Shown piece by piece: positions 38,151-57,897 of a DNA stretch of 64,000 nt. Within the stretch, counting starts at the first letter, position 1. The number at the start of each line of letters is the position of its first letter. The notes beneath the pieces are model-generated. The model saw only the letters and a program-made list of their open reading frames with translations. It did no database searches and was not told the DNA's origin. The DNA comes from Pseudomonas grandcourensis. Its GTDB lineage: Bacteria > Pseudomonadota > Gammaproteobacteria > Pseudomonadales > Pseudomonadaceae. The stretch covers positions 3,138,501 through 3,202,500 of the forward strand of contig NZ_CP150919.1 of assembly GCF_039909015.1 (NCBI RefSeq), in the 5' to 3' direction. The position numbers and the translations under genes were made by a program.

Positions 38151-40247
38151 TCAGAAACCACTTTCCCTCATCAACACCGCCATCAAATGCGTAGCACCAT
38201 CAGCCAGCAAGCTGCGCCGTTCCCCTTCGATCTTCAGATGCCCCCGGGTTTCCCGCAGGCTCGGCAAGGGTTCGTCGAGTTGAATCAGCACCTGGAACAA
38301 CGCCGCGCTGGGGATCAGCGCGTGTTCCGCCGAGGTGGTCGGCACCGGGCCGCCGAAGCGTGAGGACAGCATGCGGTGCGACAGTTGGCTGGCGCGGGTG
38401 CTGCCGATCACCAGGACGCGGCCGGTGAGCGGGGTGGTCTGGCCGTCCGGGTAAAAGCGCACGCGGTCGCCGGTGACCATGCGATGCACCTGGTCCTGTG
38501 CGACATAGGCGTCCACCTGCCAGCTGCGCGGGTCGATCAACATGCCCAGGGATTCCTGGCGACCTACCCACTGGCCGGCTTTCCAGTCCGGATTGACGTC
38601 CAGCCAGAGCCCGGCGAAGGGTGTTTGCAGGTTGAGCCGGGCGATCTCCGAGCGTGCGGCCCGTGCCTCTTCGAATTGTACGTTCAGGCGTTGCCGGGTG
38701 ACGGCGTCTTCCTGCAGTCCGCCGGGGTCGGCCAACAAGCCTGACAGGCGCGCTTCATAACTGCGGGCATTGGCTTCGCTGCTTTGCAGGCGCGAGGCAA
38801 TGTCCGGCTCGTCGAGCACGATCAGGGTTGCGCCGGCATTGACGGGGCCTTCGGCATGAATCGATTGCAGGCGCGCCGGGTAGGGCGCATAGACGCGCAA
38901 CTGGTGTTCGGCACGGGCCACGCCAACCGCGTCGATCTGGCTATGCCAGGGGATCGCCAGCCCGGCGACAATCAGCGCCAGCACGCCGTAGAACGCAAGC
39001 TTGCGCCGGCTTGGGATGCCGGCGCGGTGTTGCCACCAATGATTCAATTCGCGCACCACCGGCATGGCGATGAACCAGGACAATTCGACCATGAACAGGA
39101 TGATCCCCAGCAGTTTGAAGAAGAACAGGTAGACCGCTAGGGCAATCCCCAGGAACAGCACCAGCCGGTACAGCCAGGTGATGATCGCGAACGTCACCAG
39201 CAGCCGGCGTTGCCCGGTCGGGAACGCTTCCGGCCAGTCTTCCTGCAAGCCCAGTAGATTACGGCGCAGGGTGACCCGCGCCAGGGCTGAGGCGCGTTCG
39301 TGCAGGTTGGGAAAGTCCAGCAGGTCGGAGAGGATGAAGTAGCCGTCGAAACGCATGAACGGGCTGGCGTTGAGCGCCAGTGACAGCAGCCAGCTGGTGG
39401 TCGCCAGGTACAGCAGTGCATTGCGCAGCGGGCCCGGATCACACAGGGCCCAGCCCAGGGTCGACAATCCGGCCAGGGACAACTCGGTGACGATACCGGC
39501 CGAGGCGATCGCCAGGCGCTGGCGCGAGCGACTGAGTTTCCAGCTCTCGCCCGTATCGGTGTAGAGCATCGGCCACAACACCACGAAGGCGATGCCCATG
39601 TGCCCGACCCGCAAGCCCAGGCGCGTCGCCACCAGTGCGTGCCCCAGTTCATGCAGGGTCTTGGCGACGATCAACGCCAGGGCGAAGCTGAACAGGCCTT
39701 CGGTGGAAAACGACTCGACCACAGCGTGGGTAAAGACATCCCATTGCTGCAGGACCAGAATCACCCCCCACAGGCTCAGGGTAAACACCAGCAGGCCCGT
39801 GAGCGGGTGAAACAGCCAGCCCAGCGCACGAGCCAGGTGCTGCAACGGTTGTTGCGGACGCAGCAACGGTATGCGGAAGAACAGGTAATGGTGCAACCAC
39901 CAGCGCCAGCTCAGCCAACTGCCTGCCTCGTCCTTTTCCTTTAGCCGTTCGAGGGCTGCGGGGCCTGCACGCAGCAGTTGGTGCTGTTCGAGGAACTGGC
40001 GGAAGTCGAGGATCTGTTCGACATCCGGTTTGAGCGCGGTGCCTTCGCAGATCTGTTCGCTGATCTGCCGGGGCGACTGCCCCCAGCGCAGCAGGCATTC
40101 GAATTCCAGCCAGCCGATGCGGTAAAAACGGTTGATCACCGTGTCCTGGATCACCCAGGCCGGTTCGCCGTTGCTGCCGTTGGCGGCTTCGCTCAGGCGC
40201 AGGTCTTCGCGCAAGGGCGGCAGGGGCAAGTCAGCGGGATCGAGCAT
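38151..40247 (-). CDS. PqqD-like / M50 zinc protease / HlyD fusion protein
   Basis: 698 residues in three parts. Residues about 20-95 look like a PqqD-type winged helix (VINRFYRIGWLEFECLLRWG). About 130-430 is a multi-helix M50 (site-2-protease-like) membrane domain with H199-E-L-G-H203 and a later NASPFMRFDGYF segment that supplies the usual third zinc ligand aspartate. About 440-690 is a periplasmic HlyD-like adaptor domain (LRVYAPYPARLQSIHAEGPV). Its start overlaps the stop of the GAF-HlyD gene by one base. Such 'peptide zinc metalloprotease' proteins are poorly understood. The cluster suggests a role in processing or export of the giant protein. Confidence 0.85.
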   Translation of the reverse strand: MLDPADLPLPPLREDLRLSEAANGSNGEPAWVIQDTVINRFYRIGWLEFECLLRWGQSPRQISEQICEGTALKPDVEQILDFRQFLEQHQLLRAGPAALERLKEKDEAGSWLSWRWWLHHYLFFRIPLLRPQQPLQHLARALGWLFHPLTGLLVFTLSLWGVILVLQQWDVFTHAVVESFSTEGLFSFALALIVAKTLHELGHALVATRLGLRVGHMGIAFVVLWPMLYTDTGESWKLSRSRQRLAIASAGIVTELSLAGLSTLGWALCDPGPLRNALLYLATTSWLLSLALNASPFMRFDGYFILSDLLDFPNLHERASALARVTLRRNLLGLQEDWPEAFPTGQRRLLVTFAIITWLYRLVLFLGIALAVYLFFFKLLGIILFMVELSWFIAMPVVRELNHWWQHRAGIPSRRKLAFYGVLALIVAGLAIPWHSQIDAVGVARAEHQLRVYAPYPARLQSIHAEGPVNAGATLIVLDEPDIASRLQSSEANARSYEARLSGLLADPGGLQEDAVTRQRLNVQFEEARAARSEIARLNLQTPFAGLWLDVNPDWKAGQWVGRQESLGMLIDPRSWQVDAYVAQDQVHRMVTGDRVRFYPDGQTTPLTGRVLVIGSTRASQLSHRMLSSRFGGPVPTTSAEHALIPSAALFQVLIQLDEPLPSLRETRGHLKIEGERRSLLADGATHLMAVLMRESGF

Positions 40248-41593
40248 TACCAGCCACTCCACGCCCGCAGCGTCGCCAGCGGCCGGCGCAGCAAGTAGTA
40301 ACCGAGCATCACCCGGCCGCCATAGAGTTTGGCGGTGCCGTGCAGACCCAGGCGCGCATGCTCCGGCGCGCCTTCGATGCTTGCCAGCAGACGATAGGCG
40401 ACCACGCCTTCATCGCTGGGGCGGGCCTGGTAACTGGTTTCGAGGATCTGGCCCTTGAGCGGGGTCAACGGGTACGCCGTGAGAAACAGCGTGACTTGCG
40501 CCCCGGGCTCCAGGGCGATGGCATCGGCCACCGCCAGCTGGATCAGCATGGCCGGTTGGCTCGGGTCGGCCACTTGCATGATCCGTTCGCCGGTGACCAC
40601 CGGTTTGCCCAGCCAGTCGTTGGGGTCACTGAACACCGCCACGCCGCCGCGGGGTGAAAGGACCTTGGTGCGCTTGAGTTGGGCTTGCACCGCCGCCAGT
40701 TCGGCCCGGCGTTGCTGGGCTCGGCCCTGAAGCAGGGTCAGCTCGCTTTTGCTTTGCGGGTTATCGAACGCCCGCTGGCTGGCCGCCTGCAACTCGGCAT
40801 CGGCCACCGCGACTTCCTTGCCCAACACCTCGGCGCGGCTGCGCAAGGTGGTTTCGTCCAGGGAGAACAATGGTGTTCCGGTTTCCACCGGTTGGTTGGG
40901 GCGCACCTGGATCTGCTCGATCACGCCGTCGATGGGTGAACTGATGATTTGCGCCTGGCGCGACACGATCTCCGTCGGGGCCAGTGCGGTTTGCCTTACC
41001 GGCAGCAACAACAAGGCGCCGAGCACGATCAGGCCCAACAGCAGTTGTTTGCGGTTGGGGCGCCAGCGGCCGAGGCGCCGATGCCGGGTCAGCGCGGCCC
41101 AGCAGTAGCCCCAGGTATTGACCAGGCCTTTGAGGTGTTGCCACAACACGGTCGGCGGCTCCTGCTCCAGCAGCAACATCAACAGACCCAGGCGTTGCCC
41201 TTCACGGTCTTGGAGCGGAATGCACCAGAGGCCCGACGGCCACCATTCGCTCCAGCCTTCGACGACGTCCGGCGGCGGGGTGGTGGTGTCCGGTGTCAGC
41301 CACACAGGTTCGCCATCGGCAACCTGAGTGGCGATCCAGCGACTGGCCCGGCGCAACCAGACCAGGTACGGCGAATCTTCGCTGGGGCGTGACAGTCCGG
41401 AAACGTTCAGCAGTTCCAGCGACGATTCCCGTTGGGCAAAGACCAGGGCCTGATGAAACGGCAGCAGCGGGTACAGATCGTTGGCCATGCTGAACGCCAG
41501 GGCGTTCAGCGAGTCGGCGGCGATTGCCTTGTCCCGCAGGGCATCGAGTTCCAGCAGCAGATGAGGGTGGGGCAGCGGCTCGTTCATTGTCAT
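40247..41593 (-). CDS. GAF domain - transmembrane - HlyD adaptor protein
   Basis: 448 residues. The N-terminal 165 residues resemble a cytoplasmic GAF domain (LALAFSMANDLYPLLP-type start and LWCIPLQDREGQRLGLLMLL). One transmembrane helix follows (LLLGLIVLGALLLLPV, about 190-207), then a periplasmic biotinyl-lipoyl/HlyD part (ISSPIDGVIEQIQVRPNQPV, coiled-coil hairpin, then VLSPRGGVAVF). The ATG at 41593 overlaps the stop of the upstream gene as ATGA. A sensor-like GAF domain on a membrane fusion protein is unusual and hints at regulated export. The longer frame to 41968 is antisense-like shadow of the neighbour. Confidence 0.83.
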   Translation of the reverse strand: MTMNEPLPHPHLLLELDALRDKAIAADSLNALAFSMANDLYPLLPFHQALVFAQRESSLELLNVSGLSRPSEDSPYLVWLRRASRWIATQVADGEPVWLTPDTTTPPPDVVEGWSEWWPSGLWCIPLQDREGQRLGLLMLLLEQEPPTVLWQHLKGLVNTWGYCWAALTRHRRLGRWRPNRKQLLLGLIVLGALLLLPVRQTALAPTEIVSRQAQIISSPIDGVIEQIQVRPNQPVETGTPLFSLDETTLRSRAEVLGKEVAVADAELQAASQRAFDNPQSKSELTLLQGRAQQRRAELAAVQAQLKRTKVLSPRGGVAVFSDPNDWLGKPVVTGERIMQVADPSQPAMLIQLAVADAIALEPGAQVTLFLTAYPLTPLKGQILETSYQARPSDEGVVAYRLLASIEGAPEHARLGLHGTAKLYGGRVMLGYYLLRRPLATLRAWSGW

Positions 41594-42393
41594 GGTTGGG
41601 CACTGTTTTGTGCATCGTTTTGCAGCGCAGTGTCCTGATTGAAATGCGCCGTGCCGCTCATGCCCGCCATCAGGTCGGGGTATTTCTGGTCGAGCCGGGC
41701 TTCGAGCTCGACGGTCTGGGCCACTGCATCGACCCGCGAGTTGATGGCGCTGACGTGGGCTGGGTAAGTCTTGCCGGTTTCGTGAATGCTCACCTGCAGC
41801 GCCAGGCCGGGCTTGAGGGTCTTGAGCAGCTTGGAAGGTACGTTGAGCCGGACTTTCAAGGCGCCGTCGCTGACCAGGTCGAACAGCGGTGTACCGGCCG
41901 TGACGGTCTGGAACGGCTTGACGTAGACCTTGGCGATACGCCCGGAAAACGGCGCCAGCACCTGGCAATAGCCGCTCTGGGCCACGCCCATGGCCCGCGC
42001 GCCGTCGGCTTTCTGCACTTCGGTGTTGGCCATGGAGACTTCGATGTCGCCCACGGCGTTGAGTTGGCGCAGCTGTTTTTTCGCCTCCAGGTTCTGCTTG
42101 GCCATGGCCAGTTCGGCGGCCGCCACTTTACTGCGGGCCTCGGCTTCGTTGCAGTTGAAACGGGCGAGCACTTCGGCTTTGGCGACATGCTCGCCGAAAC
42201 CGGTTTTCATCTCGCCCAGGGTGCCGCTCATCTGGCTCGACAGGGTGGTTTCCAGTTCAGCAGCCAGCAACACGCGAATGGCGCTGGCGCTATCGAGGGT
42301 GGGCGCCAACGGTGTGTCATCGGCGTTGACGGGCAGGATCAGGCAGGCCAACAGCAGGGCCCCTATGCGGGACTCAAGGGCGGGTTTGTACAT
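41590..42393 (-). CDS. HlyD/RND-type periplasmic adaptor protein
   Basis: 267 residues with a signal peptide (about 1-24, ending VNADD). The lipoyl-domain half motifs (MSGTLGEMKTGFGEHV and VLAPFSGRIAKVYVKPFQTV) flank a short helical hairpin, and a beta-barrel part follows. It is short for the family. It overlaps the end of the TolC-like gene by 20 bases. It should bridge an inner-membrane component to the TolC-like channel. Three adaptor-type proteins in one cluster with no ABC or RND pump is odd. Confidence 0.82.
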   Translation of the reverse strand: MYKPALESRIGALLLACLILPVNADDTPLAPTLDSASAIRVLLAAELETTLSSQMSGTLGEMKTGFGEHVAKAEVLARFNCNEAEARSKVAAAELAMAKQNLEAKKQLRQLNAVGDIEVSMANTEVQKADGARAMGVAQSGYCQVLAPFSGRIAKVYVKPFQTVTAGTPLFDLVSDGALKVRLNVPSKLLKTLKPGLALQVSIHETGKTYPAHVSAINSRVDAVAQTVELEARLDQKYPDLMAGMSGTAHFNQDTALQNDAQNSAQP

Positions 42394-43909
42394 TCGGCGT
42401 TCCTTGCTGGGTGATGAGCAGACGTTGCTGTTCCTGTTCGTTCAAGGTGCGCTGGATTTCCCGGGCCAGAGTCTTGACGTCGTGTTTGGAGATTTCCTCC
42501 GGCAGGACGTCCAGCCCCACGGAGTTGTACAAGCGACCCCACGCCGCTTGGGCACTGGAGAACGCCGCTTCACGCTGGTAGCGCGACAGCAGGTAGCGAC
42601 CTTCGGAGCGGATCACCTCAAGCTCGGAACCCAGGGCGCCGGTTTTCGCCGCCTGGGCGTAGTCGAGCAGGCTGCGGTCGACCCGCAGGCTGTCTTCGGT
42701 GAACTCCACTTCCTGGCGCGCCAGTTGATAGCGCAGGGTGCCGACCCGTACCTGAGTCAGGATCGCCATGGACAGCGCCACCCGGCGCGTGTCGTCGGTT
42801 TCGCTCTGGGATTTTTGCGCGGCATTGAGCGACGGCAATTGCAGCAGGCGCAGCAGGTTCATCGAGACTTGCAACCCGGTGGCGTTCCAGTCGCTGTTGT
42901 AGAGGTACTTGTTGGTATCGTACCGGTAGCCGAAATCCGCGGTGACGTTAGGCCACAACTGCGCTTTGGCAATGTCCAGGTCTTTCTGGTTGACCCGCTT
43001 GCGATACCACTCTTCCATGATTTCCGGGCGGTGTTCCAGCGACAGTTGCTCCAGCTGCGCCATGCTCTGACGCACTTCCGGCAACGGCGGATCGGGCATG
43101 TCGGCCAGAATCATTTTCGAGCCCGGCGGCAATGACATCAGCGCGGCGAGTTCGGCCTGGGCGAACTCCAGATCCTGGCGGCGCACGGTCAGCAGGTAGA
43201 TGGAGTCGAGCAGGGCGCGTTGGTAGGCGAGGATTTCCTGGCGCGGCAACAGGCCACGTGTTTCGGCTTCCCGCGCGGAGGTCAGCGCGGTGTGGGTGCG
43301 CATCAGCAGCTTGTCCACTTCGGGCATCAACCGTTGCGCGCCAAGGGCGCGCCAGTAGGCGTTGCGCACATCCTGCAAGACGTTCTGCGCGACTTTGCGC
43401 CGACGCTCCTCGGCCATTAGGATCTGATCGGACTTTTGCTGGGTGCGGTAATAGGCCACGCCGAAATCCAGCAGGCTCCAGCTCAGGCCCAGGCCATAGA
43501 GTTCGCGATAGCGCTCTTCGGAGGTCGACGGACGCAAGCTGACCTGGCGGTCTTCAATACCGATTGAGGTACCGCCGGAATCGTTGTTTCGCCCGGCATA
43601 ACCGGCCGAGGCCACCAGCTTCGGCAACATCTCATGGCTGGATACATCGCGCAGGTCCGACGCCAGGGCGCTTTCCATGAGTTTGAGGCGGTAGTCGAGG
43701 TTGTATTTCAACGCCCGGGCGGCCGCGTCATAAAAGGTGATGGGCGCGCTGACCGGTTCCTGGCCGGAATACATGCGCGCCTGATCGGCGAGGATGCGTT
43801 GACGGTTCTCTTCGTCGGTGGAGGGCTTGGGCTCCAGTGACGAACAGGCACTGAGCAGCAGTGCAGAAGCGAGGGCGGAACTGATGAACCTCGTCGCATG
43901 TTTCGGCAT
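42374..43909 (-). CDS. TolC-family outer-membrane channel lipoprotein
   Basis: 511 residues. The signal peptide ends in a lipobox (LLLSAC), and the body consists of long helices repeated twice with the TolC/OEP pattern (YNLDYRLKLMESALASDLRD ... DVRNAYWRALGAQRL). It forms the outer-membrane exit duct of export systems. AAGGA lies six bases before the ATG at 43909. It is the first accessory gene after the giant protein gene, 42 bases downstream of it. Confidence 0.88.
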   Translation of the reverse strand: MPKHATRFISSALASALLLSACSSLEPKPSTDEENRQRILADQARMYSGQEPVSAPITFYDAAARALKYNLDYRLKLMESALASDLRDVSSHEMLPKLVASAGYAGRNNDSGGTSIGIEDRQVSLRPSTSEERYRELYGLGLSWSLLDFGVAYYRTQQKSDQILMAEERRRKVAQNVLQDVRNAYWRALGAQRLMPEVDKLLMRTHTALTSAREAETRGLLPRQEILAYQRALLDSIYLLTVRRQDLEFAQAELAALMSLPPGSKMILADMPDPPLPEVRQSMAQLEQLSLEHRPEIMEEWYRKRVNQKDLDIAKAQLWPNVTADFGYRYDTNKYLYNSDWNATGLQVSMNLLRLLQLPSLNAAQKSQSETDDTRRVALSMAILTQVRVGTLRYQLARQEVEFTEDSLRVDRSLLDYAQAAKTGALGSELEVIRSEGRYLLSRYQREAAFSSAQAAWGRLYNSVGLDVLPEEISKHDVKTLAREIQRTLNEQEQQRLLITQQGTPNVQTRP

Positions 43910-43951
43910 GTTCAATCCTTTATGCTCTTTGAATTATTCCGTTCGGTCACT

Positions 43952-46900
43952 TCAACTGCCCCGATTGGTCGGGTGCAGACGCTGGGCGGCATTGCGTACC
44001 TGCGCGCTGAACCCCCGGGCCGGGCGTGGCTCCTGGGCTTTTTCGCCCTGGGCCGGCCCGTGGGTCATGCCCGCGGGATCGACGACAAACAACGATGGAT
44101 CCGGCAGCAGGCCATCGGCACTCAGGCCGACGCGGCCATGTCGTCCGAGAATCCAGGCCATTTCCAGTTCACTGTCGAGCCGGCTGTCGCGCACGGCTTC
44201 GGCGACGAACTGGCCGGGTACCAACCCCAGTCCATTGCCCAGCGAATCGCTGGCGAACTCGCCACTGGAGCTGATGCGCAAGTTGCTGCCATCGGCGTTC
44301 CAGCTGGAGAGTTCATTCAATCGGGCGTTACGTTCGACCACGGGTGTCACGAAGATCGCCGGCACCGGATCGGGGATAAGCAGGCTGCTGCTCTGGCGGT
44401 CGAGGTCACGATCGAAGTGATTGCCTTCCGGTGCAGGGATGAAGGGCGTGGCAATGTTCAGAATGATCGCCAGTTCCGCCTGATCGCTGGCTCCGCTCAG
44501 ATCATTGATGGTGTAGGTAAAGACATCACGAAGCACCTGCCCAAGGCCGGCGGCGGCCAAGACTTGGGGATTGCTCTGGTCGATGGTGTAGGTGTAGGTG
44601 CCATCGGCGTTGAGTACCAGGGTGCCGTACAGACCGAGGATCGGCTGGCCGATCACGCCCGCCGTGCCTGTGCCGTTCTCGGCACCGGTGCGTATCGCCA
44701 CCACTTGCTGGTGATCGTTGCCATCGACGTCGCTGTCGTTGGGCAATACATTGCCCGTCGCTTGCGGTGCCGGGGTTTCGTCGCTGGCAACCGCGCTGTC
44801 GTTTTGCGCCACCGGGTTGTCGTCGGCCCCCTGGATGACCACGGTCAGGCGTGCATCCGAAGTGACCCCGGCGGTGTCGGTCATGCGGTAGGTGAAGGTC
44901 TCGCTGAGGGTTTCGCCCGCAGTGCGTAGCGCTTGCACCACCGGGTTGCTGTTGTCGATCAGGTAGGTGTAGCTGCCGTCGGCGTTGATGATCATTTGCC
45001 CGTAGCGCCCGGTCAGCACTTGCCCTGCGCCGGCGGACTGGCCGTTTTCGCCGGTGACGCTCAGCACCTGTTTGCTTTCGCCGTTGGCCACGCCATCGAC
45101 ATCGCGGTCGTTGGCCAGCACGTTGCCCGTGGCGTTGCTGCCCGGCGTGCCATTGGCCACGCCGCCCGCTTCGACGGCGACAGAGCCGTCGTCCCGGGCA
45201 ATGGGGGTGTCATTGCGACCATCGACGGTGATGCGCAATTCCGCCTGGCTGCTGGCACCGAAGACGTCGGACAGGGTGTAGCTGAAGACGTCCGTCAGGG
45301 TCTGGCCGCTTTGACGCAGGGCCTGGACCACCGCGAGGCTGTTGTCGACGGTGTAGGTGTAGCTGCCGTCGGCATTGATCACCAGGTCACCATACAGCCC
45401 GCGCAGCACAGTGCCCACGGTGCCGCCGGTGCCAGTGTCGGCAAGCCCGCCGGTGCGGATCGCCGACACGTTGAGGACGTCGCCTTCGACGTCGGTGTCA
45501 TTGCCCAACACATTGCCCGTCGGGTCGATGCCGCTCTGGCTGTTGTTGAGGCCACCGGCTTCGACAGCCGTCGACGCATCGTCGCCGGCTACCGGTGCCG
45601 AGTTGCGCCCGCGGATGATGATGTGAATTTCCGCCAGATCGCTTTGCCCGCCAAGGTCGGTGACCTGATAGGTGAAGCGCTCATTGAGAAATTGCAGCGG
45701 TCCCAGCGCCAGTACCGTGGGGTTGCTGGAGTCGACGACGTAAGTGTAATTGCCGTCGGCACCGATGATCAGTTGCCCGTAGAGACCGTTGATCAAGGTG
45801 CCGTTGGTGTTGTCGGTGCCTGGGTCGACCGCATCCAGAGTGCCGCCCGCCGCTTCAGTGCCGAAGCGGATACCGGTGATTTGCAGGCTGTCGCCCTGAT
45901 CGACATCGGTGTCGTTGGGCAACACGTTATGGGTCGGGTTGACGCTGTTTCCATTGCCGTCACCGGCGACGGCGAGTGCCACATCGTTGGTCGCCACGGG
46001 GGCATCCCAGGCGCCGTCGATGCGGATGTTCAGTTGGGCGACATCGGTGGCGCCGGCAGTGTCGCGCATCCGGTAGGTGAAGGTTTCCACCAGCGAATCA
46101 CCTGCCTTCAGCGCCTGGACAGCGGCCAGGTTGTTGTTGATCACATAGCTGTAGGTGCCATCGGCGTTGATGGTCAGGGTGCCGTACAGACCATCGAGGG
46201 TTTGTGTGGTGCCGACCGTGGTGAAGGTGCCCGCGGCGGTTTTGTCGCCACCCCGGACGTCGGTGACGGTCTTGCTGTCGTTGGCGTCGACGTCGCGGTC
46301 GTTGGTCAACACATTGCCGGTAGGGTTCAGCCCCGGAGTGGCATTGGCGGTGCCGCCAGCCTCGACGGCCACCGTGCTGTCGTCCGCCGCCAGCGGGTTG
46401 TCGTTGGCGCCGCGGATGATGATGGTCAGCGTGGAGGTGTTGCTGGCACCGAAGAGATCGCGCACCTGATAGGTGAAGGTTTCTGTCAGCACGTCAAGAG
46501 GCGTGCGCAGGGCCTGGACCCGCAGGTTGTTGTTGTCCACCAGATAACTGAAGGTCCCGTCGCTATTCAACGTCAGGGTGCCGAACTTGCCGACCAGCCC
46601 GCTGCCGAGCACGCCGACGGAAGTCCCCTCGTTGAATCCGGTCACGCTGAGCCTTTCGGTACTGCCGTCGACGTCGGTGTCATTGAGCAGCACGTTACCG
46701 GAAGGGTTGGTTCCCTGGGTGCCGTTGTTCAGCCCGCCGGCTTCGAAGGCGATGCTGATGTCATTGCTTGGAAGCGGCGTGTCGTCGCGGCCGTGAATGT
46801 CGATGTTCAAGGTCGCGCGATCTTCGGCGCCGCTGGCATCGATCACGGTGTAGCTGAAGGCATCCTCCAGCCTTTCGCCGAACCGCAACGCCTGAACCTG

Positions 46901-49900
46901 CGCCATGTTGTTGTCGAGCCGGTAGCTGTAGCTGCCGTCGGCATTGAGGGTCAGCCAGCCATAGGTGCCGCGCAGTTCGCTGCCCAGGGCGCCGGCTGTG
47001 CCGGTTGCGGCTTCGTTGCCGGTACGCACCGAGGACACGGCGCGGGTCTCGCCATAGTCGTGGGCGGGCAGGTCGGCGGGCACCTCGCCACCGTCGACGT
47101 CGGTGTCGTTGTCCAGCACGTTGCCGATCGGGTCCAGGCCGGGCTGATTGTTATTGGTGCCACCGGATTCAATGGCGATGGAGGTGTCATCGGTGGCGAC
47201 GGGGTTGTCGTTCTGGCCACGGATCAGCACGATGATTTCCGCCGAGTCGGTTTCCGGCGTGGGGCTGACGTTGTCGCTGACGGTGTAGGTGAAGCGCTCC
47301 AGCAGCAGGTCGCTGCCACGGCGCAACGCCTGGACATCCGCATTGTCATTGTCGAGCGCGTAGCTGTAGCTGCCGTTTGGAAAAATCGTCAGCGTTCCGT
47401 ACTGGCCAACAATCACCGTGCCGCCCGCATTGACGGCGATTGGCGTGCCTGTACCACCCTCGGCACCGGGCTTGATCAAGATCACTGTCAACGGGTCGCC
47501 ATCGGGGTCGAAGTCATTGGCCGTGGCGTCGCCGGACGGATCGCGGCCGGCGGTGCCGTTGGCAATGCCGCCTTTTTCAGTGGCAATGGCAATCACGTTT
47601 TGCGACACGGGTGGGTCGTTGACACCGTGCACGGTGATGACCAGTTGTGCAGTGTCGGTCAGCCCATTGGTATCGGTGATCCGGTAGGTGAAGAACTCGG
47701 TCAGGGTCTGTCCTGCGGCGAGCGCCTGCACAGCGGCATTGGTACTGTCGACATCGTAGAAGTACGAGCCATCGGCGCCGATGCGCAAGGTGCCGAACAG
47801 GCCGGTCACCACCGTGCCGTCAGCTGAGGTAGTGCCCGTGGCGACGCCACTCAGGACATCGACGGCCGGGTTGTAAGTCGCTTCGCTTTTATTGATCACC
47901 CCGTTGACCAGCAACTGGCTGCTGGGTTGGTCCGCCGCGTCGACGTCATGATCGATACCGTTATCGACAAGTCCGGGGCGGCTCGGGAACTGGACGACGT
48001 TGCCGCTCGGGTTGCTTTCGCTGGCATTGTTGTTGCTGGAAGCCGCCTGGGCTTCTGCCTGGTCATCACTGGCCACCGGGTTGTCATTGGCCCCTTGCAC
48101 GACGATGCGCAATTGCGCCACGTCGTCGAGCCCGCCGGTATCGGTGACCCGGTAGCTGAAGAAATCAACCAGTTGCTCACCGGCGCTCAGGCGCTGAACC
48201 CTGGTGTTGTTGTTATCGACCACGTAGCGATAAGTGCCATTGGGGTTGATGGTCAGGGTCCCGTAGAGGCCGACGACGCTGGTGGCAGCGGTAACAGGCG
48301 TGAAAGCAGCTGCAATCACCTCCGGGACCGGACGGATGCCGGTCACGGTCCTGGTTTCGCCATTGACGGTGCTGTCCACATCGGTGTCATTGGTCAACAC
48401 GTTGCCGACCGCGTCGCTGCCCGGGGTGGTGTCGAACACGCCTCCGGCTTCGGCGGCACCGCCATTGTCATTCACGCCCACTGGCGTGTCGTTGGCCCCC
48501 TCGATGGTCACGGTCAGGGTGGCTGTGGCGGTGGCACCGGCCAGGTCACTGACAACGTAATCGAAACGATCGGTCAGGGTCTGGCCCGACAGGCGCAGGG
48601 CCTGTACGGCGGCATTGTTGTTATCGACAATGTATTCGTAGGAGCCATTGCTGCCGACCAGCAACTGCCCGAACTGGCCGTTGATCACCACCACACCGAC
48701 GACCGGCGTCTGAATGCCGGCGCCCGGGCCGACTGACAGAACGTGCAACCGGTCGGCATTGGTGGCGATATCGAGATCGGTATCGTTGACCAGCAGATTG
48801 CCCCGCGGGTCGACCCCGATAGCCGTGTTGTTGGTACCGCCCGCTTCAACGGCAGTAGCACTGTCATCGACCGCAATCGGTGGGTCGTTGACCGGGGCGA
48901 GGATGATTTGCAGGGTGTCGGTGTCGCTCAGGGCATCGGCAGTAGTGCCGGGCAGGCCAGAGCCATTGGCATCGCCATAGTTGCCCTGGTCGTTAGTGAC
49001 CACGGTCAGGGTGTCGGTGCCGTTGAAGTTCAGGTTACCCAGATAGCGCAGGCTGGCCAGCGCCGTGTTGAGGTTGGCGAGGGTGCCGGTCAGGGACAGG
49101 GTGGTCGTATTGGCACCGGTGACCGTCACGCCGGGAACGGTTGCACCGAGGAACAGGGTGCCGTTGAGCACACTCAAGGTTACGCTCAGGTTGCGGCCGG
49201 CGACATTCGGGTCGCGGTTGGCGTCGAAGTCGGCGACGCTGATGCCGCCGATGCTCAGAGGCACATCCTCCTGGCCGTTCTGAGTGCCGGGCAGGGTGTT
49301 GACCGGTGCGTCGTTCTGTTCGACGTAACCGGCGTTGGCCGCCTGTGTCGCGGCATCGCCCAGGGTGATGGTGATCTGCCCGAGCGTGCCGGCATCGGTG
49401 TCGACCCGCACGCGCAAATCCCCCAGCGGCTGCGGGTAGCTCACCAGCCCGGCCGGAACATCAATGCGGAACACGCCCAGGGGCAGCACGCCAAAGTGGT
49501 ACTGGCCGTTGGCGTCGGTGACGGTGGTGAATGTCAGGTTGTCGGCGGTAGTACCGAGCTGACCGTCGGCGCCGGCCCAGGTCAGGGTGACGGTCTGCCC
49601 GGCCAGGCCGGCGCCGTCGGGCGTGGCGCTGGCGGTCGGCGACGCGGTGTCGTTCCACAGGGTGCCGGTTATGACGCCGAGCCCGGCGTTGTCGCGCAGG
49701 ATGTACTGGTTCGGGCCGACGGTGCTGCCGGTGCGTTCACCGTTCGCCGTGCCGTCGATGCCGACAAAGTTGCCACCCCAACTGGAGAAATCTTCCGGCA
49801 GGCTGCTCCAGGTCAGGGTAGCGTTGCTGCTGGCGACTATCGAGGCATTGGGCAGGGTGACCTGATAGCGCACCTGAATCTGTGCGCCCACGTCCAGTTG

Positions 49901-52129
49901 ATCGAAGTTGACACTCAATCCGCCGGAGGTACTGAAGCTCACGCCGGCAGGCAGGTTGCCGGGGCCGAAGCTGGTGCCGTTGAGGGTGACGCTGAGCAAG
50001 GTGTAGTTGCTGCCACCGGCAAAGCTGTCGCTGACGCGCGTATCGAACGCCGGCAGGCCGCCGTTCTGGGTGAAACTCAGCTGCACCGTAGCGCTGCCGG
50101 TGGTGCCGCTGGGGTTGGGGTCGAACGCGACGATCTGTTTGTCCAGGCCACTGAAGCTCGGTTCGACGATGCGTTCGAAAACGGTGTCGCTGTTGGCCCG
50201 GCCCGCGCCGTTGACGATTTCATGGGCCGAGACCGCCAGTTGAGCGCCGCTGATGTTACTGGCGGTGTTGCTGACCCGCACGTTGAACTCGATGGCGATG
50301 CCTTCAAGATCGTCATCGTCGGCGCTGTTGACCACGTTGCCGAGGTTGAAAGTCACGACCTGACTGCCGTCGGGATTGGTCACGACGGTCAGGCGGTTCG
50401 GGTCGAAGACGCCGTTGGGCGCCAGCCCTGACAGGTCGGGAGTGATCGGCAAGGCTTCGGGACTGTTCTCGTTGCCGTTGACATTGAGCGTGCCACCGAC
50501 GATCAGGTTGGCGTCGCTGGTCAGCGAGCCGTTGGAAATGAAGGCAATGCGCAACGCATTCACCAGGGCGTCCGGGGAAATGAACTGCAGGCCGTTGGCG
50601 AGGGTGATCTGGATCTGATAATTGGGGTTGTTGCCCTCGGGTACCAGCACCACCACCCGGTAGCGAATCACTTCGCCGATGGTCACCTGTTCCACTGCGG
50701 TCGTGGTCGGGGCCGGTGCCGCCGTGTCGGGCAAACCGCCGACCCGGGAGATTTCAATGGACTGCGCCACGGGCACCAGCAAGGTCGAAGCATTGCGGTA
50801 GTCGTTGAGTGTGCCGCCGTTGATCAGGCCATTGACTCCTGTGCGCTCGCCGCCCTGGGTGCCATCCAGACTGGTCCATTGCACCGTTGCCACGTTGGCG
50901 AAGTTGGACGTGGCCGCTGCCGTGGCATTGACCACGCCGGTCACCTGCAAGACGATGCTGCCACCCTTGGCAATGTCGATGTTGGCACCGTTGGCGGTAC
51001 GCAACTGGCCGCCAACGATCTCGAAACCCACGCCGCCGTTGTTGGTGGCGCCGTTCTGGTACAGCACGCCCACCAACGTGATGTTGCTGAACTGGGTCGG
51101 CAGGTTATCGAGAAAACTGATGTCGAATGCCGTGAAGTCGCTGGCAGCGTTACCGTTGCTGATGGTGATCGTGAAGCTGACGGTGTCGCCCTGGTCATAG
51201 CCGCCATTACCGGTGGTTGTCGTCAGTGCCTGGCTGATCTGCAGGGTGGGTTCACGCACGATCACCGTAGGTCGGCCGCCGGTGAGTGCCACTGTGCGAT
51301 CCACCGCGACGTTGCCGTTGGCGGTGTTGGTGTCGGGGTCGCTGTAGATCAATTGCGCGTTGTTTTGCCGGGACACGTTGGCCTGGTTGCCGATGACGTT
51401 GTTGGCCACCAGTTGCAGGCGTATCACGAAGGTGTTGTTGCCGGTCTGGTTGTCGGCCGACGCACTGGACACGCTGAAGGTCCAGCGTGCATCCACGCCA
51501 TCGTTACCCAATGTGCCGCCCTGTCCGCCGAAGCCACTGACCAGCACGCTGCCGGCGAAGTCTGCACCCAGGGCGCCACTGCCGGTGCGGGTGGTGATGA
51601 TCTGGTAACCCAGGCCGCCGTTGAACGAGGTATCCAGGCGCATGCCCGGTGGGATCAGGTCGTCGATGCGCAGGTTTTGCGTGCTGCCTTCGGGCAGGGT
51701 GATGACGATGTCGTAGCGCATGCTTTCGCCGATCACCAGGTCGCTGCCGGTGGTGTGGCCGGCACTGGAGTCGCCATTGTCCAGTGTGCCATCGGCGAAC
51801 ACTTTGCGAATGACCGGCGCGGCGACTTGCTGGTTGGCAAGGTCGGTCAGGTCGGCCGGCGTGAAGTCCGTACCGCCGTTGACGCTGGCATAGTTGCTCA
51901 GGGTCGCGGTGGATTGCAGGGTGCGGCTGGCCTCAATGGTATTGCTGACCGCCACGTCGTAGCTGATCACCACCAGATTGGCGCCGCTGGTGTCGGCGGC
52001 GGTGCCGCTGCGTCCGGCGAGGAGTGTGGCCTGGCCACCCGCGTCAAGGAAGGTGATCTGGTTGCCGCTCACGCTGTAGTCGGTGCCCAGCACCAGCAGC
52101 GTGCCGTCACCCCGGTAGATCTGCAGGTT
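43952..52129 (-). CDS. Giant repeat protein, C-terminal part (VCBS/cadherin-like repeats)
   Basis: About 2,726 codons downstream of the frameshift, with no start of its own that has a ribosome binding site. It first shows DUF11-like beta domains, then a prealbumin-like SdrD-B segment (DANGQYHFGVLPLG), a cadherin-like domain (DAPVNTLPGTQNGQEDVPLS), and an array of about 11 VCBS repeats. The C-terminal 150 residues are non-repetitive and polar, without RTX nonapeptides or a type I secretion tail that I can recognise. These features suit a very long surface or released adhesin. Confidence 0.85.
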   Translation of the reverse strand, partial: NLQIYRGDGTLLVLGTDYSVSGNQITFLDAGGQATLLAGRSGTAADTSGANLVVISYDVAVSNTIEASRTLQSTATLSNYASVNGGTDFTPADLTDLANQQVAAPVIRKVFADGTLDNGDSSAGHTTGSDLVIGESMRYDIVITLPEGSTQNLRIDDLIPPGMRLDTSFNGGLGYQIITTRTGSGALGADFAGSVLVSGFGGQGGTLGNDGVDARWTFSVSSASADNQTGNNTFVIRLQLVANNVIGNQANVSRQNNAQLIYSDPDTNTANGNVAVDRTVALTGGRPTVIVREPTLQISQALTTTTGNGGYDQGDTVSFTITISNGNAASDFTAFDISFLDNLPTQFSNITLVGVLYQNGATNNGGVGFEIVGGQLRTANGANIDIAKGGSIVLQVTGVVNATAAATSNFANVATVQWTSLDGTQGGERTGVNGLINGGTLNDYRNASTLLVPVAQSIEISRVGGLPDTAAPAPTTTAVEQVTIGEVIRYRVVVLVPEGNNPNYQIQITLANGLQFISPDALVNALRIAFISNGSLTSDANLIVGGTLNVNGNENSPEALPITPDLSGLAPNGVFDPNRLTVVTNPDGSQVVTFNLGNVVNSADDDDLEGIAIEFNVRVSNTASNISGAQLAVSAHEIVNGAGRANSDTVFERIVEPSFSGLDKQIVAFDPNPSGTTGSATVQLSFTQNGGLPAFDTRVSDSFAGGSNYTLLSVTLNGTSFGPGNLPAGVSFSTSGGLSVNFDQLDVGAQIQVRYQVTLPNASIVASSNATLTWSSLPEDFSSWGGNFVGIDGTANGERTGSTVGPNQYILRDNAGLGVITGTLWNDTASPTASATPDGAGLAGQTVTLTWAGADGQLGTTADNLTFTTVTDANGQYHFGVLPLGVFRIDVPAGLVSYPQPLGDLRVRVDTDAGTLGQITITLGDAATQAANAGYVEQNDAPVNTLPGTQNGQEDVPLSIGGISVADFDANRDPNVAGRNLSVTLSVLNGTLFLGATVPGVTVTGANTTTLSLTGTLANLNTALASLRYLGNLNFNGTDTLTVVTNDQGNYGDANGSGLPGTTADALSDTDTLQIILAPVNDPPIAVDDSATAVEAGGTNNTAIGVDPRGNLLVNDTDLDIATNADRLHVLSVGPGAGIQTPVVGVVVINGQFGQLLVGSNGSYEYIVDNNNAAVQALRLSGQTLTDRFDYVVSDLAGATATATLTVTIEGANDTPVGVNDNGGAAEAGGVFDTTPGSDAVGNVLTNDTDVDSTVNGETRTVTGIRPVPEVIAAAFTPVTAATSVVGLYGTLTINPNGTYRYVVDNNNTRVQRLSAGEQLVDFFSYRVTDTGGLDDVAQLRIVVQGANDNPVASDDQAEAQAASSNNNASESNPSGNVVQFPSRPGLVDNGIDHDVDAADQPSSQLLVNGVINKSEATYNPAVDVLSGVATGTTSADGTVVTGLFGTLRIGADGSYFYDVDSTNAAVQALAAGQTLTEFFTYRITDTNGLTDTAQLVITVHGVNDPPVSQNVIAIATEKGGIANGTAGRDPSGDATANDFDPDGDPLTVILIKPGAEGGTGTPIAVNAGGTVIVGQYGTLTIFPNGSYSYALDNDNADVQALRRGSDLLLERFTYTVSDNVSPTPETDSAEIIVLIRGQNDNPVATDDTSIAIESGGTNNNQPGLDPIGNVLDNDTDVDGGEVPADLPAHDYGETRAVSSVRTGNEAATGTAGALGSELRGTYGWLTLNADGSYSYRLDNNMAQVQALRFGERLEDAFSYTVIDASGAEDRATLNIDIHGRDDTPLPSNDISIAFEAGGLNNGTQGTNPSGNVLLNDTDVDGSTERLSVTGFNEGTSVGVLGSGLVGKFGTLTLNSDGTFSYLVDNNNLRVQALRTPLDVLTETFTYQVRDLFGASNTSTLTIIIRGANDNPLAADDSTVAVEAGGTANATPGLNPTGNVLTNDRDVDANDSKTVTDVRGGDKTAAGTFTTVGTTQTLDGLYGTLTINADGTYSYVINNNLAAVQALKAGDSLVETFTYRMRDTAGATDVAQLNIRIDGAWDAPVATNDVALAVAGDGNGNSVNPTHNVLPNDTDVDQGDSLQITGIRFGTEAAGGTLDAVDPGTDNTNGTLINGLYGQLIIGADGNYTYVVDSSNPTVLALGPLQFLNERFTYQVTDLGGQSDLAEIHIIIRGRNSAPVAGDDASTAVEAGGLNNSQSGIDPTGNVLGNDTDVEGDVLNVSAIRTGGLADTGTGGTVGTVLRGLYGDLVINADGSYTYTVDNSLAVVQALRQSGQTLTDVFSYTLSDVFGASSQAELRITVDGRNDTPIARDDGSVAVEAGGVANGTPGSNATGNVLANDRDVDGVANGESKQVLSVTGENGQSAGAGQVLTGRYGQMIINADGSYTYLIDNSNPVVQALRTAGETLSETFTYRMTDTAGVTSDARLTVVIQGADDNPVAQNDSAVASDETPAPQATGNVLPNDSDVDGNDHQQVVAIRTGAENGTGTAGVIGQPILGLYGTLVLNADGTYTYTIDQSNPQVLAAAGLGQVLRDVFTYTINDLSGASDQAELAIILNIATPFIPAPEGNHFDRDLDRQSSSLLIPDPVPAIFVTPVVERNARLNELSSWNADGSNLRISSSGEFASDSLGNGLGLVPGQFVAEAVRDSRLDSELEMAWILGRHGRVGLSADGLLPDPSLFVVDPAGMTHGPAQGEKAQEPRPARGFSAQVRNAAQRLHPTNRGS
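44450..48897 (-). repeat. Array of about 11 VCBS-type repeats
   Basis: Each unit of about 110-150 codons starts near NPVA.DD..A.E.GG, then GN-L-NDTDVD, a glycine-rich turn, LTINADGTYSYVVDNNNAAV-type strand and ETFTYRMTDTAGATD-type strand. I counted 11 by the YSYVVDN element. The copies differ at many positions, so this is an old array rather than a recent expansion. Confidence 0.85.
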
Positions 52130-55100
52130 CGCTGCCGCCGACGAAGCTCAGGCCAGTCGGCAGGGTGATGCTGGTGCTGACATCGAAGGCGCCGCCACCC
52201 CCGCTGTTTTCAATGGCGGTGACCAGGCGCAGGCGGTCGCCGCCGTCGATATTGATGATGTTGCCGTCTACGGCCGCCAGGCTGGTGACGCTGCCATTGA
52301 AGGGCACGCCAGTGCTGCCCGGAGGGTTCCAGCTGCCGGTGGTGTTGCTGACGGTGCCGTTGGTGCCGGAAACCACACCGTGTTTGATATTCAGCACTGG
52401 CTCGGCCACGGACACGATCACCGCGACGTCGGAGGAAATCAGGGTACGGTCGGTGAGGGTGGTTTGCTGGCTCGATTGCGCCAGTACGTCCAGCGAGCGC
52501 TGGTCGGCAAAGGGCTGGTCGCCCACGCGCACGCTAAAGCGGATGACGATGCGGCTGCCAGTGGTGTCGGGCGTGGTGAAGCTGCCGAAGTCGAAGACCA
52601 CCGAGTTGCCGTTGGCACTGGTGACGCTGACCACGCCGCCGGCATTGGTGTTGCCGGGACCGATTTGCCATTGGCCGACATCGCTGCCCGTGGCCCAGGT
52701 CACGCCGGTCACGTTGAACAGTGGCAATGGCAGATAGGCCGTGAGCTTGAACTGTTCGTAGTCACCGGTGACCAGGTCGTAGCTGAGCTGGAACGTCACT
52801 TCATCGCCAGGGCGCAGTTCACCGCTGGCCGGCGGGGTGCCGTTATTGACCTCGACCAGGCTGATATCGACGACGCTGGTCGGGATCACGCTGGTGGTCG
52901 CCGAACCATCGGTTTCGCTCTGGCCGGTGAGGTTGAGGGGGTCTTGCAACAGGGTGCCATCGACCACCGCACTGTTCCCCAGTTCGTCGCCCTCGTTGAT
53001 TTCCGGCTGCGGGTTGCCTGAAGGTGGTTTGTAGGTCTGGCCGACGATGGCCGAATAGCTGAGCACCGCCAGCATCGCGCCTTGAAGTTGCTGGTCAAAC
53101 GCCAGGTCGCCATTGAGCCAGCCACGCAGGGCAAACGAATTACGCAACGACTGGGCAATGTCGAACGCCATCGATGTGCTGCCGTCGGCGTTGTTGACGA
53201 CGGTGGTGACCAGGGTAATGGTCTGCGTGACGCCGTTGATGGTAACGGTCAGGGTCGGGGTGCCGGTCAGCGTCTGGCCGTCACTGAGTTGGTCGCGAAT
53301 GATCAGTTGCCCTGCGTTGAAGGCGTCCTTGCCGAAGGCGAAGTAGTCGGAAATGGCCAGGTTCAGGTTGTACTGCAAGGTGTCGCCGGGGGTGATGCCG
53401 GTGTGGCCGATATCGTTCTGCACGGTGACGGTCTTGAGCAGCGTGATCGATTTGGCGATGAACTGCGTGGTGACGCCGGAGCCGCTGAAATCGATGGTGG
53501 TGTTCGGCGCGGTGACGTCCCGTGGGTCAAGCGGTACCCATTGACCGGACGCACTGGGGGCGTCGAGGGTGATGGCCACATCGTCGCCGGTGACCGGGTT
53601 GATGACCGGCAGGCCGTTGGCGTCGACTTCCGGTACATAGAACGCGACCACGGTATCGGTCTTGCCCGCAAGGCTGGCATAGGTCACGGAAAACGAGCTG
53701 AGATACACGTTGTCGGCGGCGATCAGCACGGCGATTTGGGCCGGGTTGGTGACCACCGTGCCATCGTGCAGGGTAATGGAGGTCAGGCGGCCACCGGCCC
53801 CGGGGGTAATGGCGGTGACTTGAACATTGTCCGGCAACGGCTGGGTCACCACGACATTGGACAACGTCTGGCCCGGGGCGGGGGTTACTGAGAGGGTCAA
53901 GGTACGGCCATAGTTCGGGCCGGTCGCGGTTTCACCCTCCGGGGTGCTCAGGGTTTCATCGAAGGTGATGACCGTCGGATGCACCACAAACGCGGCGGTA
54001 CCGGCCTGAATCAGGCTGGGATCGTTGGTCGGGTTGTCCAGGGCGTCGTTACCGAACTCAAAGCCGCCGCTGGTGCGGATGGTCAGGTCCGGGGTGCCAT
54101 TGGAAAAACTGGTGTCGGCCAGGTTGCTGAGACTGGCGTTGATCTGTACCGGGATGACGGGTTGTGCGTTGGTGACGCTGGCAAAGGGCAGTTCGATGAC
54201 CACCAGTGTGTCGCCGGCGCGCATGCCGTAGGTCGACGCGTTGATGACCAGGAAGTTGCCGTTGGCGTCTTTCGCCAACGGGTGAGTGGCGTTGCCCGAC
54301 GCGTCGAACGTTACCAGGTGGCTGACCAGGTTTTGGCCAAGGTAACTGGCGGAGATGAAGTTAACGCCGTCATTACCGTCCCGGCCGGTGGTCGGTAGCG
54401 CCAGGTTGATGAAGGGGGCAAAACCGGTCTGGGTGGAGGTGTTGCTGAAGTTCACGGTAAACGAGAAGTTGTCACCCAACAATACATTGCTGCCGGCGAC
54501 GGGCAGGCTCGCGGTGGGTGCGGCATCGGCCAACAAGCCGTCGAAACTGGCCATGGCGGCGCTGCTGATCGCAATGCTCTTGTCGATATCGCCGACTCTG
54601 GTTTCCAGTGTCCAGTCACCGCCGGCCCGGGTGCTGCCAGTGTCATTGCTGGAGGCGGCCACATCGGCGCCGGTCCAGCGGGCCAGTTCGGTGACCAGGG
54701 TTTTGCCGGCCATGCCCGCGCCGATGTCGCAACCATAGAGCTGGATATCCGCGCCCTGGGTCAGGTTGTTGCGCCATTGTCCGAGGGTCTGGCCGAGTTG
54801 GTCGACGTTATCCGAGGTGATGGTGCGATTGCCCAGGGTGAATTGCCCGGCGGCGCCGTGGGACATGACCTGGATCGAATCGACTTTACCCAGTTGCGCC
54901 AGCGCCGCGGAAATCGCCGCCAGGCCATCCTCACCGACGTTGACCACTATGGCGGTGACATTGCCCGGCAATTGGGCCAGCAGTTGATCGCGGTTTTCGA
55001 TACGGCTGTCGAGCACCAGCAGGCTGCGTGCAGCCGATGGTGCCTGCTCGGTGGCGGCACGGCCTTCGGTCGGGGTCGCATGAGGAACGGGGGCGTCAAC

Positions 55101-55250
55101 CGCTGCAGGCGAGGCAGTCGGGTCAGAATGCTGCTGATCGGCCGTCGCGGAAGCGGCCGCACCGTCGAAAAGAATCCTTGGTTCCAGCGCAAGCGCCTGG
55201 CGTTGCGGACGAAGATGAACGCCTGAAAATGAACGTCCTGACCCTTGCAT
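52107..55250 (-). CDS. Giant repeat protein, N-terminal part (LEPR motif, DUF4347, DUF11-like domains)
   Basis: 1,047 codons to the frameshift stop. Near the N-terminus, RQALALEPRILFDGAA matches the LEPR-type motif common at the start of giant secreted proteins; there is no Sec signal peptide. Residues about 70-235 form a DUF4347 domain (LLVLDSRIENRDQLLAQL ... IQVMSHGAAGQFTLG ... IQLYGCDIGAGMAG). Its SHG and YGC pairs recall the His-Cys dyad of clan CD (caspase-like) proteases. Several DUF11-like Ig-type domains follow. The gene begins the export cluster. Confidence 0.85.
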   Translation of the reverse strand: MQGSGRSFSGVHLRPQRQALALEPRILFDGAAASATADQQHSDPTASPAAVDAPVPHATPTEGRAATEQAPSAARSLLVLDSRIENRDQLLAQLPGNVTAIVVNVGEDGLAAISAALAQLGKVDSIQVMSHGAAGQFTLGNRTITSDNVDQLGQTLGQWRNNLTQGADIQLYGCDIGAGMAGKTLVTELARWTGADVAASSNDTGSTRAGGDWTLETRVGDIDKSIAISSAAMASFDGLLADAAPTASLPVAGSNVLLGDNFSFTVNFSNTSTQTGFAPFINLALPTTGRDGNDGVNFISASYLGQNLVSHLVTFDASGNATHPLAKDANGNFLVINASTYGMRAGDTLVVIELPFASVTNAQPVIPVQINASLSNLADTSFSNGTPDLTIRTSGGFEFGNDALDNPTNDPSLIQAGTAAFVVHPTVITFDETLSTPEGETATGPNYGRTLTLSVTPAPGQTLSNVVVTQPLPDNVQVTAITPGAGGRLTSITLHDGTVVTNPAQIAVLIAADNVYLSSFSVTYASLAGKTDTVVAFYVPEVDANGLPVINPVTGDDVAITLDAPSASGQWVPLDPRDVTAPNTTIDFSGSGVTTQFIAKSITLLKTVTVQNDIGHTGITPGDTLQYNLNLAISDYFAFGKDAFNAGQLIIRDQLSDGQTLTGTPTLTVTINGVTQTITLVTTVVNNADGSTSMAFDIAQSLRNSFALRGWLNGDLAFDQQLQGAMLAVLSYSAIVGQTYKPPSGNPQPEINEGDELGNSAVVDGTLLQDPLNLTGQSETDGSATTSVIPTSVVDISLVEVNNGTPPASGELRPGDEVTFQLSYDLVTGDYEQFKLTAYLPLPLFNVTGVTWATGSDVGQWQIGPGNTNAGGVVSVTSANGNSVVFDFGSFTTPDTTGSRIVIRFSVRVGDQPFADQRSLDVLAQSSQQTTLTDRTLISSDVAVIVSVAEPVLNIKHGVVSGTNGTVSNTTGSWNPPGSTGVPFNGSVTSLAAVDGNIINIDGGDRLRLVTAIENSGGGGAFDVSTSITLPTGLSFVGGSEPADLPG

Positions 55251-55968: not shown

Positions 55969-56038
55969 GTGTGGTGGAGTCCTTGTACAGGGTTGTCTGG
56001 TGTTAGGGTTCGGCGAGCATTTGAGGGACCATGCGGGG

Positions 56039-57634: not shown

Positions 57635-57694
57635 CGACAAACCCCGAGGTATCATTATTTCACTGTGCATCCTGTGGTCGCGGATTAAACGACT

Positions 57695-57799: not shown

Positions 57800-57897
57800 G
57801 CTTATCTCCTTAAGTAGGCAAATAAGCAATTTTGGATACCTGTGGTTAATCAAGAAAAATCATTAATCATCATTTACGGGGCTTTGATAAATGCCTG

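Follow-up and report, generated by a model that had tools for sequence, protein, structure and literature searches.

A cluster of five genes in the genome of Pseudomonas grandcourensis may encode a dedicated export machine for one giant repeat protein. The cluster is at positions 38151–55250 of a 64,000-nucleotide (nt) stretch of DNA (termed the window; GC content 61%), which lies at positions 3138501–3202500 of the single 6.76-Mb contig of this genome. All five units are on the minus strand and, in the order of transcription, encode the giant protein, a TolC lipoprotein, an HlyD adaptor, a GAF-TM-HlyD protein (TM, transmembrane segment) and a fusion of an M50 metalloprotease with HlyD (termed the M50 fusion). 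The machine would be of a type-I-like kind without an ABC ATPase: the giant would be captured by an N-terminal LExR tag, moved by a SecA-type motor, trimmed by the M50 protease and anchored by a C-terminal tail. This interpretation is tentative and falls just short of probable. The giant itself is probably a surface adhesin.

The gene set recurs in other genomes, an LExR tag on the giants is tied to the M50 fusion, a C-terminal tail is present on the giants, SecA and TolC are split between two branches of the system, and the catalytic residues of the protease are conserved. Because the same genome has a second full set and the association is seen again in many others, the cluster is not a chance arrangement.

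Short tags at the two ends of the giants

A sample of 369 genomes, drawn evenly from the class, was scanned with models of the M50 fusion (at most three candidates scored per genome) and of DUF4347, a domain near the N-terminus of the giant (about nine candidates per genome). DUF4347 was found in 48/369 genomes and the M50 model matched in 66/369. Seven of the latter were dropped before counting (six with matches to the HlyD part only and one, G025, with a weak match of 45.5 bits), and the remaining 59 still include partial matches (G123, N-terminus only; G185; G216; G233). Both proteins are present in 37 genomes, the M50 fusion only in 22, DUF4347 only in 11 and neither in 299 (odds ratio 46, p = 9e-26, uncorrected for kinship). 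A co-occurrence of LEPR/DUF4347 giants with the M50 fusion, expected from an earlier examination of the window by its letters and open reading frames (termed the sequence-only reading), is thereby seen across genomes. When all candidates of the 11 DUF4347-only genomes were scored with a wider M50 model, matches to the HlyD part only were obtained.

Two sets of loci were analyzed. The first consists of 60 M50-bearing loci (the window, L006 and L012–L069). The second consists of 80 named loci, the best of 591 by similarity to the window protein; it includes close relatives and, because of how it was picked, is biased to the window subtype. Many fetched loci end at contig ends. Proteins resembling the M50 fusion number in the thousands (4884 of 8000 scored candidates), and the best named match to the window protein is from Pseudomonas sp. 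ACN8 (98%). LExR giants adjoin the M50 fusion in, among others, Variovorax, Chromobacteriaceae, Zoogloea and Nitrospira.

A strict LEPR pattern applied to the open reading frames of the 60 loci gave 13 matches, and all 13 are DUF4347 giants adjacent to the M50 fusion and on the same strand. The looser LExR pattern, which like the tail pattern below was defined after inspection of sequences, matches 21/401 non-core open reading frames of at least 300 amino acids (aa), and 21/21 are on the M50 strand. Four of these cargo genes (L025, L030, L036, L066) show no DUF4347 match. In the 80 named loci the looser pattern matches 18/910 open reading frames, 17 of them on the M50 strand (the other is in L208); a match in L167 is probably due to chance.

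The N-terminus was readable in 44 of the 48 DUF4347 genomes (left out were G123 and G193, with incomplete N-termini, and G068 and G090). An LExR-type N-terminus (in one case QExR) is present in 33 genomes with the M50 fusion and in 2 without, and a non-LExR N-terminus in one with (G077) and 8 without (p = 2e-6; G071 and G245 were assigned anew by hand after inspection of their reading frames). Inspection by eye showed a Sec-like N-terminal segment in six non-LExR proteins (L116, L122, L125, L127, L129, L134) and a short untagged N-terminus in five (L105, L114, L115, L120, L131). No Sec-like segment was seen by eye ahead of the LExR tags in the DUF4347 N-termini inspected.

DUF4347 was also considered as the tag and was rejected, since genomes in which the M50 fusion was not found also have DUF4347 proteins, with N-termini that are Sec-like or short and untagged, and since LExR giants are also found without it, e.g. 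in G112 and G229 (both among the 22 M50-only genomes), G306 and G295. Judged from these sequences, the tag is LExR and not DUF4347.

At the other end of the giants, a [F/L]xxQ[L/V/I] pattern is present in the last 100 residues of 47/71 complete giant-like open reading frames from window-type loci, compared with 8/1420 internal control windows from the same proteins. The 71 were selected by composition; a few are not giants, and one is the first half of the frameshifted window giant. The typical form of the tail is (G/P/A)-(F/L)-S-E-Q-L-R-x-A. The tail of the window giant, GFSAQVRNAAQRL, is situated 19 residues before the end, and that of the giant in the second set is TLGQQLQQL. Only five complete C-termini are available for giants of SecA loci, and 1/5 matches the pattern.

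A different ending was observed in the giants of L063, L066, L182, L223 (G190) and L225 (G323, on the TolC side of the tree described below), where the tail is replaced by a hydrophobic hairpin and, after it, a DPL(P/S) motif. The two of these that were checked (L066, L182) gave no Pfam match for this end.

ATPases, the M50 fusion and the inner-membrane step

No ABC domain was detected in the open reading frames of the window with an ABC model derived from 27 of the 30 ABC domains that were retrieved from the same genome (as a control, three of its type I ATPases scored 80–104 bits). A Pfam search of the genome for ABC domains gave 139 matches, with 150/220 candidates scored, and none is in the window. 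Across the 60 + 80 loci, many of which end at contig ends, no ABC gene of the exporter type was found contiguous with the core. The ABC model does match in 8/60 and 7/80 loci, and the match is on the same strand next to a core gene only in L030 and L036; these two are ABC-F genes by Pfam, are located directly after the M50 gene and come from loci of one genus. In L012 the match is 147 bp away on the opposite strand, and the remaining matches are at least 3.3 kb away, e.g. an ABC exporter 3.3 kb upstream of the core in L066. The sequence-only reading had noted that the cluster has no type I ABC ATPase. This holds for the window, and a type I ABC ATPase that consistently accompanies the cluster in relatives was not found among the 140 loci.

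The same reading termed the system “ATPase-free”, and here it has to be corrected. A SecA-like gene (>100 bits with the SecA model) accompanies the M50 gene in 22 loci of the first set, and is directly adjacent to it where positions were inspected; two of the encoded proteins were checked and show the SecA_DEAD, P-loop_SecA and SecA_PP_bind domains. In a tree of 94 M50 fusions (quick method, midpoint root) the 22 SecA loci are on one side (the sister branch) and 34 TolC loci are on the other, with one change each. SecA and TolC never occur in the same locus in these 94 rows, of which 38 have neither in the fetched stretch. SecA is present in 0/80 of the window-like named loci. At the genome level, a second SecA_DEAD match of >90 bits was found in 24/59 M50 genomes (two fragments in G100 were left out). 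The only TolC-side genome among them is G303, which has loci of both branches; in G081 and G310 the second SecA is outside the fetched cluster. With a SecA-like ATPase beside M50 in the sister branch, the export machine is, by analogy, probably SecA-driven.

A type I ABC ATPase encoded elsewhere could instead work in trans; the C-terminal tail would then serve as a type I signal, and LExR would be a tag for retention. The window genome does have two LssB-type and two PrtD-type ATPases over the cut-off and, as in type I substrates, a conserved C-terminal tail is common in the cargo. However, LssB- and PrtD-type ATPases exceed the cut-off in 0/15 selected LExR/M50 genomes, one of them (G162) from the same family. 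The 15 were chosen for low LssB scores (10/59 M50 genomes exceed the LssB cut-off), the LssB/PrtD screen was limited to 15 and up to 48 candidates in each genome, and the HlyB type was judged from partial LssB coverage only. LssB- and PrtD-type ATPases thus seem dispensable in these 15 genomes. Considering also that no exporter-type ABC gene was found contiguous with the core in the 140 loci, and that a SecA-like ATPase occupies that place in the sister branch, an ATPase acting in trans is unlikely.

The M50 fusion appears to be a working enzyme. HExxH is present in 57/60 loci, the exceptions being a split frame (L052) and partial genes (L053, L069). H204, E205 and H208, together with the Asp of the second motif (D306), are invariant in 57/57 aligned window-type proteins. 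This invariance makes an active protease likely. The window protein scores 155.5 bits against the NCBIfam model for daptide M50 proteases (NF041824), where the cut-off is 300.

A separate feature of this protein is its C-terminal end, RESGF (38154–38168). The R and E are at least 90% conserved in the 57 window-type proteins, and this end is absent from sister-branch proteins.

The N-terminal regions of sister-branch M50 proteins are PqqD-like. Pfam PF05402 is matched by 27/31 of them at E ≤ 1 (best 4.5e-8), the best match among solved structures is PqqD 3g2b (E = 1.2e-4), and comparison with Pseudomonas PqqD by hhalign gave 64.5% (E = 6e-5). Window-type and sister-branch N-termini are homologous (hhalign, 96.8%, E = 2.9e-10).

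In the sequence-only reading the M50 fusion may itself be the inner-membrane platform. On such a view it would translocate the giant with no ATPase, by proton-motive force or by pulling as the chain folds outside. The idea of M50 as a pore is not new, and was also proposed in 2015 by Kamneva, Poudel and Ward (PMC4452313). In its favor, the M50 fusion is the sole cluster protein with several hydrophobic segments (Kyte-Doolittle only), and apart from the ABC-F genes of two loci no recurrent ATPase family was recognised in the TolC-side loci of the first set. However, the sister branch has a SecA-like ATPase next to its homologous M50 gene, and M50 proteases are not known to serve as protein channels; an ATPase-free M50 translocator is therefore improbable.

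Ordinary Sec export, with the M50/HlyD/TolC set only processing and retaining the giant in the style of Lap-type retention, would agree with the invariant protease site, with the EAL protein encoded upstream (see below) and with the Sec-like segments seen by eye on some DUF4347 proteins elsewhere, but neither the window giant nor, by eye, the regions before LExR tags show such a segment, and three adaptors with TolC resemble a conduit rather than a retention device, so that this explanation is doubtful as well.

Genes of the window cluster and a second copy

The coordinates are given in Table 1. Pfam assignments and junction distances agree with the five consecutive reverse-strand units with tight junctions that were first seen in the bare sequence. 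The giant and TolC genes are separated by 42 nt; TolC and HlyD overlap by 20 nt, HlyD and GAF-HlyD by 4 nt, and GAF-HlyD and M50 by 1 nt (ATG start at 40247) or 16 nt (GTG start at 40262). E-values in Pfam are 6.4e-50 for DUF4347 in the giant, 9.2e-36 for OEP in TolC, 8.8e-19 and 3.7e-14 for HlyD_3 in the adaptors, and 2.3e-8 for Peptidase_M50 and 1.6e-8 for HlyD_3 in the M50 fusion. The HlyD adaptor and TolC channel are thus of the type I kind by Pfam (over cut-off), with the NCBIfam type I models under their cut-offs.

Table 1. Positions in the window of the cluster genes and of features within them.
Feature	Position	Strand	Remarks
Giant cargo protein, whole	43952-55250	-	two frames
Giant, N-terminal part: LEPRILFDGAA tag at residues 22-32, DUF4347 at 77-240; stops at frameshift	52107..55250	-	
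Reading-frame shift within overlap	52107..52147	-	
Giant, C-terminal part: Cadherin_4/VCBS repeats; tail GFSAQVRNAAQRLHPTNRGS at end	43952..52093	-	
TolC-family outer-membrane lipoprotein (OEP)	42374..43909	-	Pfam; lipobox by eye
Small HlyD/RND-type periplasmic adaptor, N-terminal hydrophobic signal	41590..42393	-	Pfam; Kyte-Doolittle
GAF-like N-terminal domain, one TM, HlyD domain	40247..41593	-	start picked by eye
M50 fusion: PqqD-like N-terminus, multi-pass M50 metalloprotease (HELGHA), HlyD, C-terminal RESGF	38151..40262	-	likely start 40247

M50-HlyD, GAF-HlyD and HlyD genes occur together in the window, with the GAF label resting on relatives: Pfam gives no GAF match in the window protein (P0002) and no PqqD match in the M50 fusion (P0001), and GAF is matched in L039, L048, L028 and L020. 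For the GAF-TM-HlyD protein of the sequence-only reading, the TM and HlyD parts are therefore found in the window itself and GAF only by way of relatives. The giant with LEPRILFDGAA and DUF4347 is present as described there, but its gene is split by a frameshift into two frames of 1047 and 2713 codons. Full-length close relatives in a single frame are found in 3/40 genomes of the genus (G370, 3776 aa; G395, 3905 aa; G383, 3873 aa), so the window copy is either disrupted or the result of an assembly error. The statement that the giant has no Sec signal stands, as no hydrophobic segment was found in its first 300 residues (Kyte-Doolittle only).

Isopeptide-type and DUF11 repeats in the N-terminal part of the giant gave weak matches, below cut-off. 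With the NCBIfam model LEPR-XLL (NF012209) the window giant scores 15.9 bits, under the cut-off of 17; of five cargo sequences examined with this model, L048 (25.9) and L063 (21.9) pass, and L145, L025 and L182 have no match. The solved chain nearest to DUF4347 by sequence is 9qpe, itself named DUF4347 (E = 3.8e-5). In an alignment of DUF4347 (residues 77–240 in the window giant), a His is kept in 9/11 rows, mostly as part of HG, and the Cys of a GC motif in 11/11. The pattern is reminiscent of the dyad of clan-CD cysteine proteases.

Upstream of the cluster on the same strand (55468–58911) are genes for an OmpA-like small barrel, an EAL (c-di-GMP phosphodiesterase-like) protein and an AraC-type regulator. 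EAL/GGDEF genes are also present in L029 and L046, and SapC-like genes are near the cluster in L017 (Pfam) and in L035, L041 and L061 (by similarity to L017).

A diverged second set is found at 208–227 kb of the same genome (L006:8465 to L007:7000). It consists of HlyD, GAF-HlyD, the M50 fusion (36% identical to that of the window), a PMT_2-type glycosyltransferase gene, a DUF4347 giant with LEPRMLFDGA, and TolC. Neither Pfam nor the ABC model described above detected an ABC domain in these genes. A separate set of major facilitator (MFS), HlyD and OEP genes is just upstream. In the tree the second copy groups with the locus of G162, which is from another genus of the same family, far from the window copy. 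The position of the PMT_2 gene between M50 and the giant makes glycosylation of the cargo possible.

Proposed pathway and relation to known systems

In the proposed pathway, the LExR leader would be captured in the cytosol by the PqqD-like domain of the M50 protein. A SecA-type ATPase would then drive the unfolded chain, N-terminus leading, across the inner membrane, either by way of SecYEG or through a channel of which the M50 protein is part. The motor would be the cluster-encoded SecA in the sister subtype, and most likely the single housekeeping SecA in the window subtype. Since the homologous platform adjoins SecA elsewhere, the housekeeping SecA is the simplest candidate; by this analogy it is our best guess and the weakest step of the mechanism. 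The leader would be trimmed at the M50 site, TolC would form the conduit together with the three HlyD-type proteins, and the C-terminal (F/L)SxQL tail would be held in the envelope and keep the giant on the surface.

Several observations weigh against this pathway. The window cluster has no SecA gene, and only one true SecA is encoded in the genome; the second SecA_DEAD match in P. grandcourensis, 20 bits, is below the cut-off. The tail as scored is missing from 24/71 giant-like open reading frames, clearly so in L017, L025, L030, L036 and L052, with several of the 24 carrying near variants, and as a sequence feature it would equally suit a type-I-like C-terminal signal. DUF4347 was not detected in 22/59 M50 genomes, and LExR is present without the M50 fusion in two genomes (G245, G286). 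Direct comparison of the window-type N-terminus with PqqD gave 2.4%, 0/57 window-type N-termini match PqqD in Pfam at E ≤ 1, and PqqD is not among their PDB matches. The PqqD-like N-terminus claimed for the window protein in the sequence-only reading is thus reached through the sister branch, which matches PqqD and to which the window type is homologous, and fails in the direct comparison.

Type I secretion systems are composed of HlyB, HlyD and TolC, and LapBCE exports LapA. The window cluster is similar in its HlyD adaptors, TolC and single giant repeat substrate, but differs in having no ABC ATPase and in having an N-terminal LExR tag and the M50 fusion. The accessory Sec system (SecA2) exports giant adhesins in Gram-positive bacteria. 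Its use of a second SecA for large repeat adhesins resembles the sister subtype; the window system, however, is M50/HlyD-based and its genome has no second SecA. A likeness to leader readers of ribosomally synthesized and post-translationally modified peptides (RiPPs), i.e. PqqD and RiPP recognition elements (RRE), is found in the sister branch, which is PqqD-like by profile, and a likeness to the M50 proteases of daptides and epipeptides is seen in the below-cut-off NF041824 score of the window protein. The cargo here is a giant protein, however, and no RiPP enzyme was among the recurrent neighbor families tested.

The closest relation is to the conserved locus of secondary SecA_DEAD, Peptidase_M50, GAF-HlyD and HlyD genes described in 2015, for which M50 was proposed as the pore and SecA as the motor (PMC4452313). 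According to the available sections of that paper, OEP genes are present in some of these loci and no ABC gene was found. By domain the locus has the same gene set as the window cluster, likewise without an ABC gene. The window subtype is unlike it in that TolC is present and a second SecA_DEAD is not, and the tags and PqqD-like domain are added here. A term search of the available text gave no mention of LEPR, DUF4347 or Pseudomonas. Judging from the open-access literature searched, what is new is a TolC subtype that lacks a dedicated motor, the two-ended tag and the PqqD-like N-terminus of M50; the searches gave nothing on the SecA-less TolC branch, the LExR linkage or the tail, though prior work elsewhere is possible.

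It is conceivable, although we hold it with reserve, that these loci form a distinct Gram-negative pathway that is neither type I nor plain Sec. It would use tags at two ends, an N-terminal LExR leader read by a PqqD-like/membrane-protease fusion and a C-terminal (F/L)SxQL retention tail. Of its two branches, the sister branch would have a SecA dedicated to it, and the window branch would have its own TolC and either borrow its motor or have none. The literature searched assigns no route of export to LExR giants. If the pathway is real, its substrates would be predictable from two short tags, and it would suggest a purpose for LEPR-type motifs. It would also make the SecA/M50 hypothesis of 2015 (PMC4452313) testable in a Pseudomonas-like genome in which the system is present twice and a second SecA is lacking.

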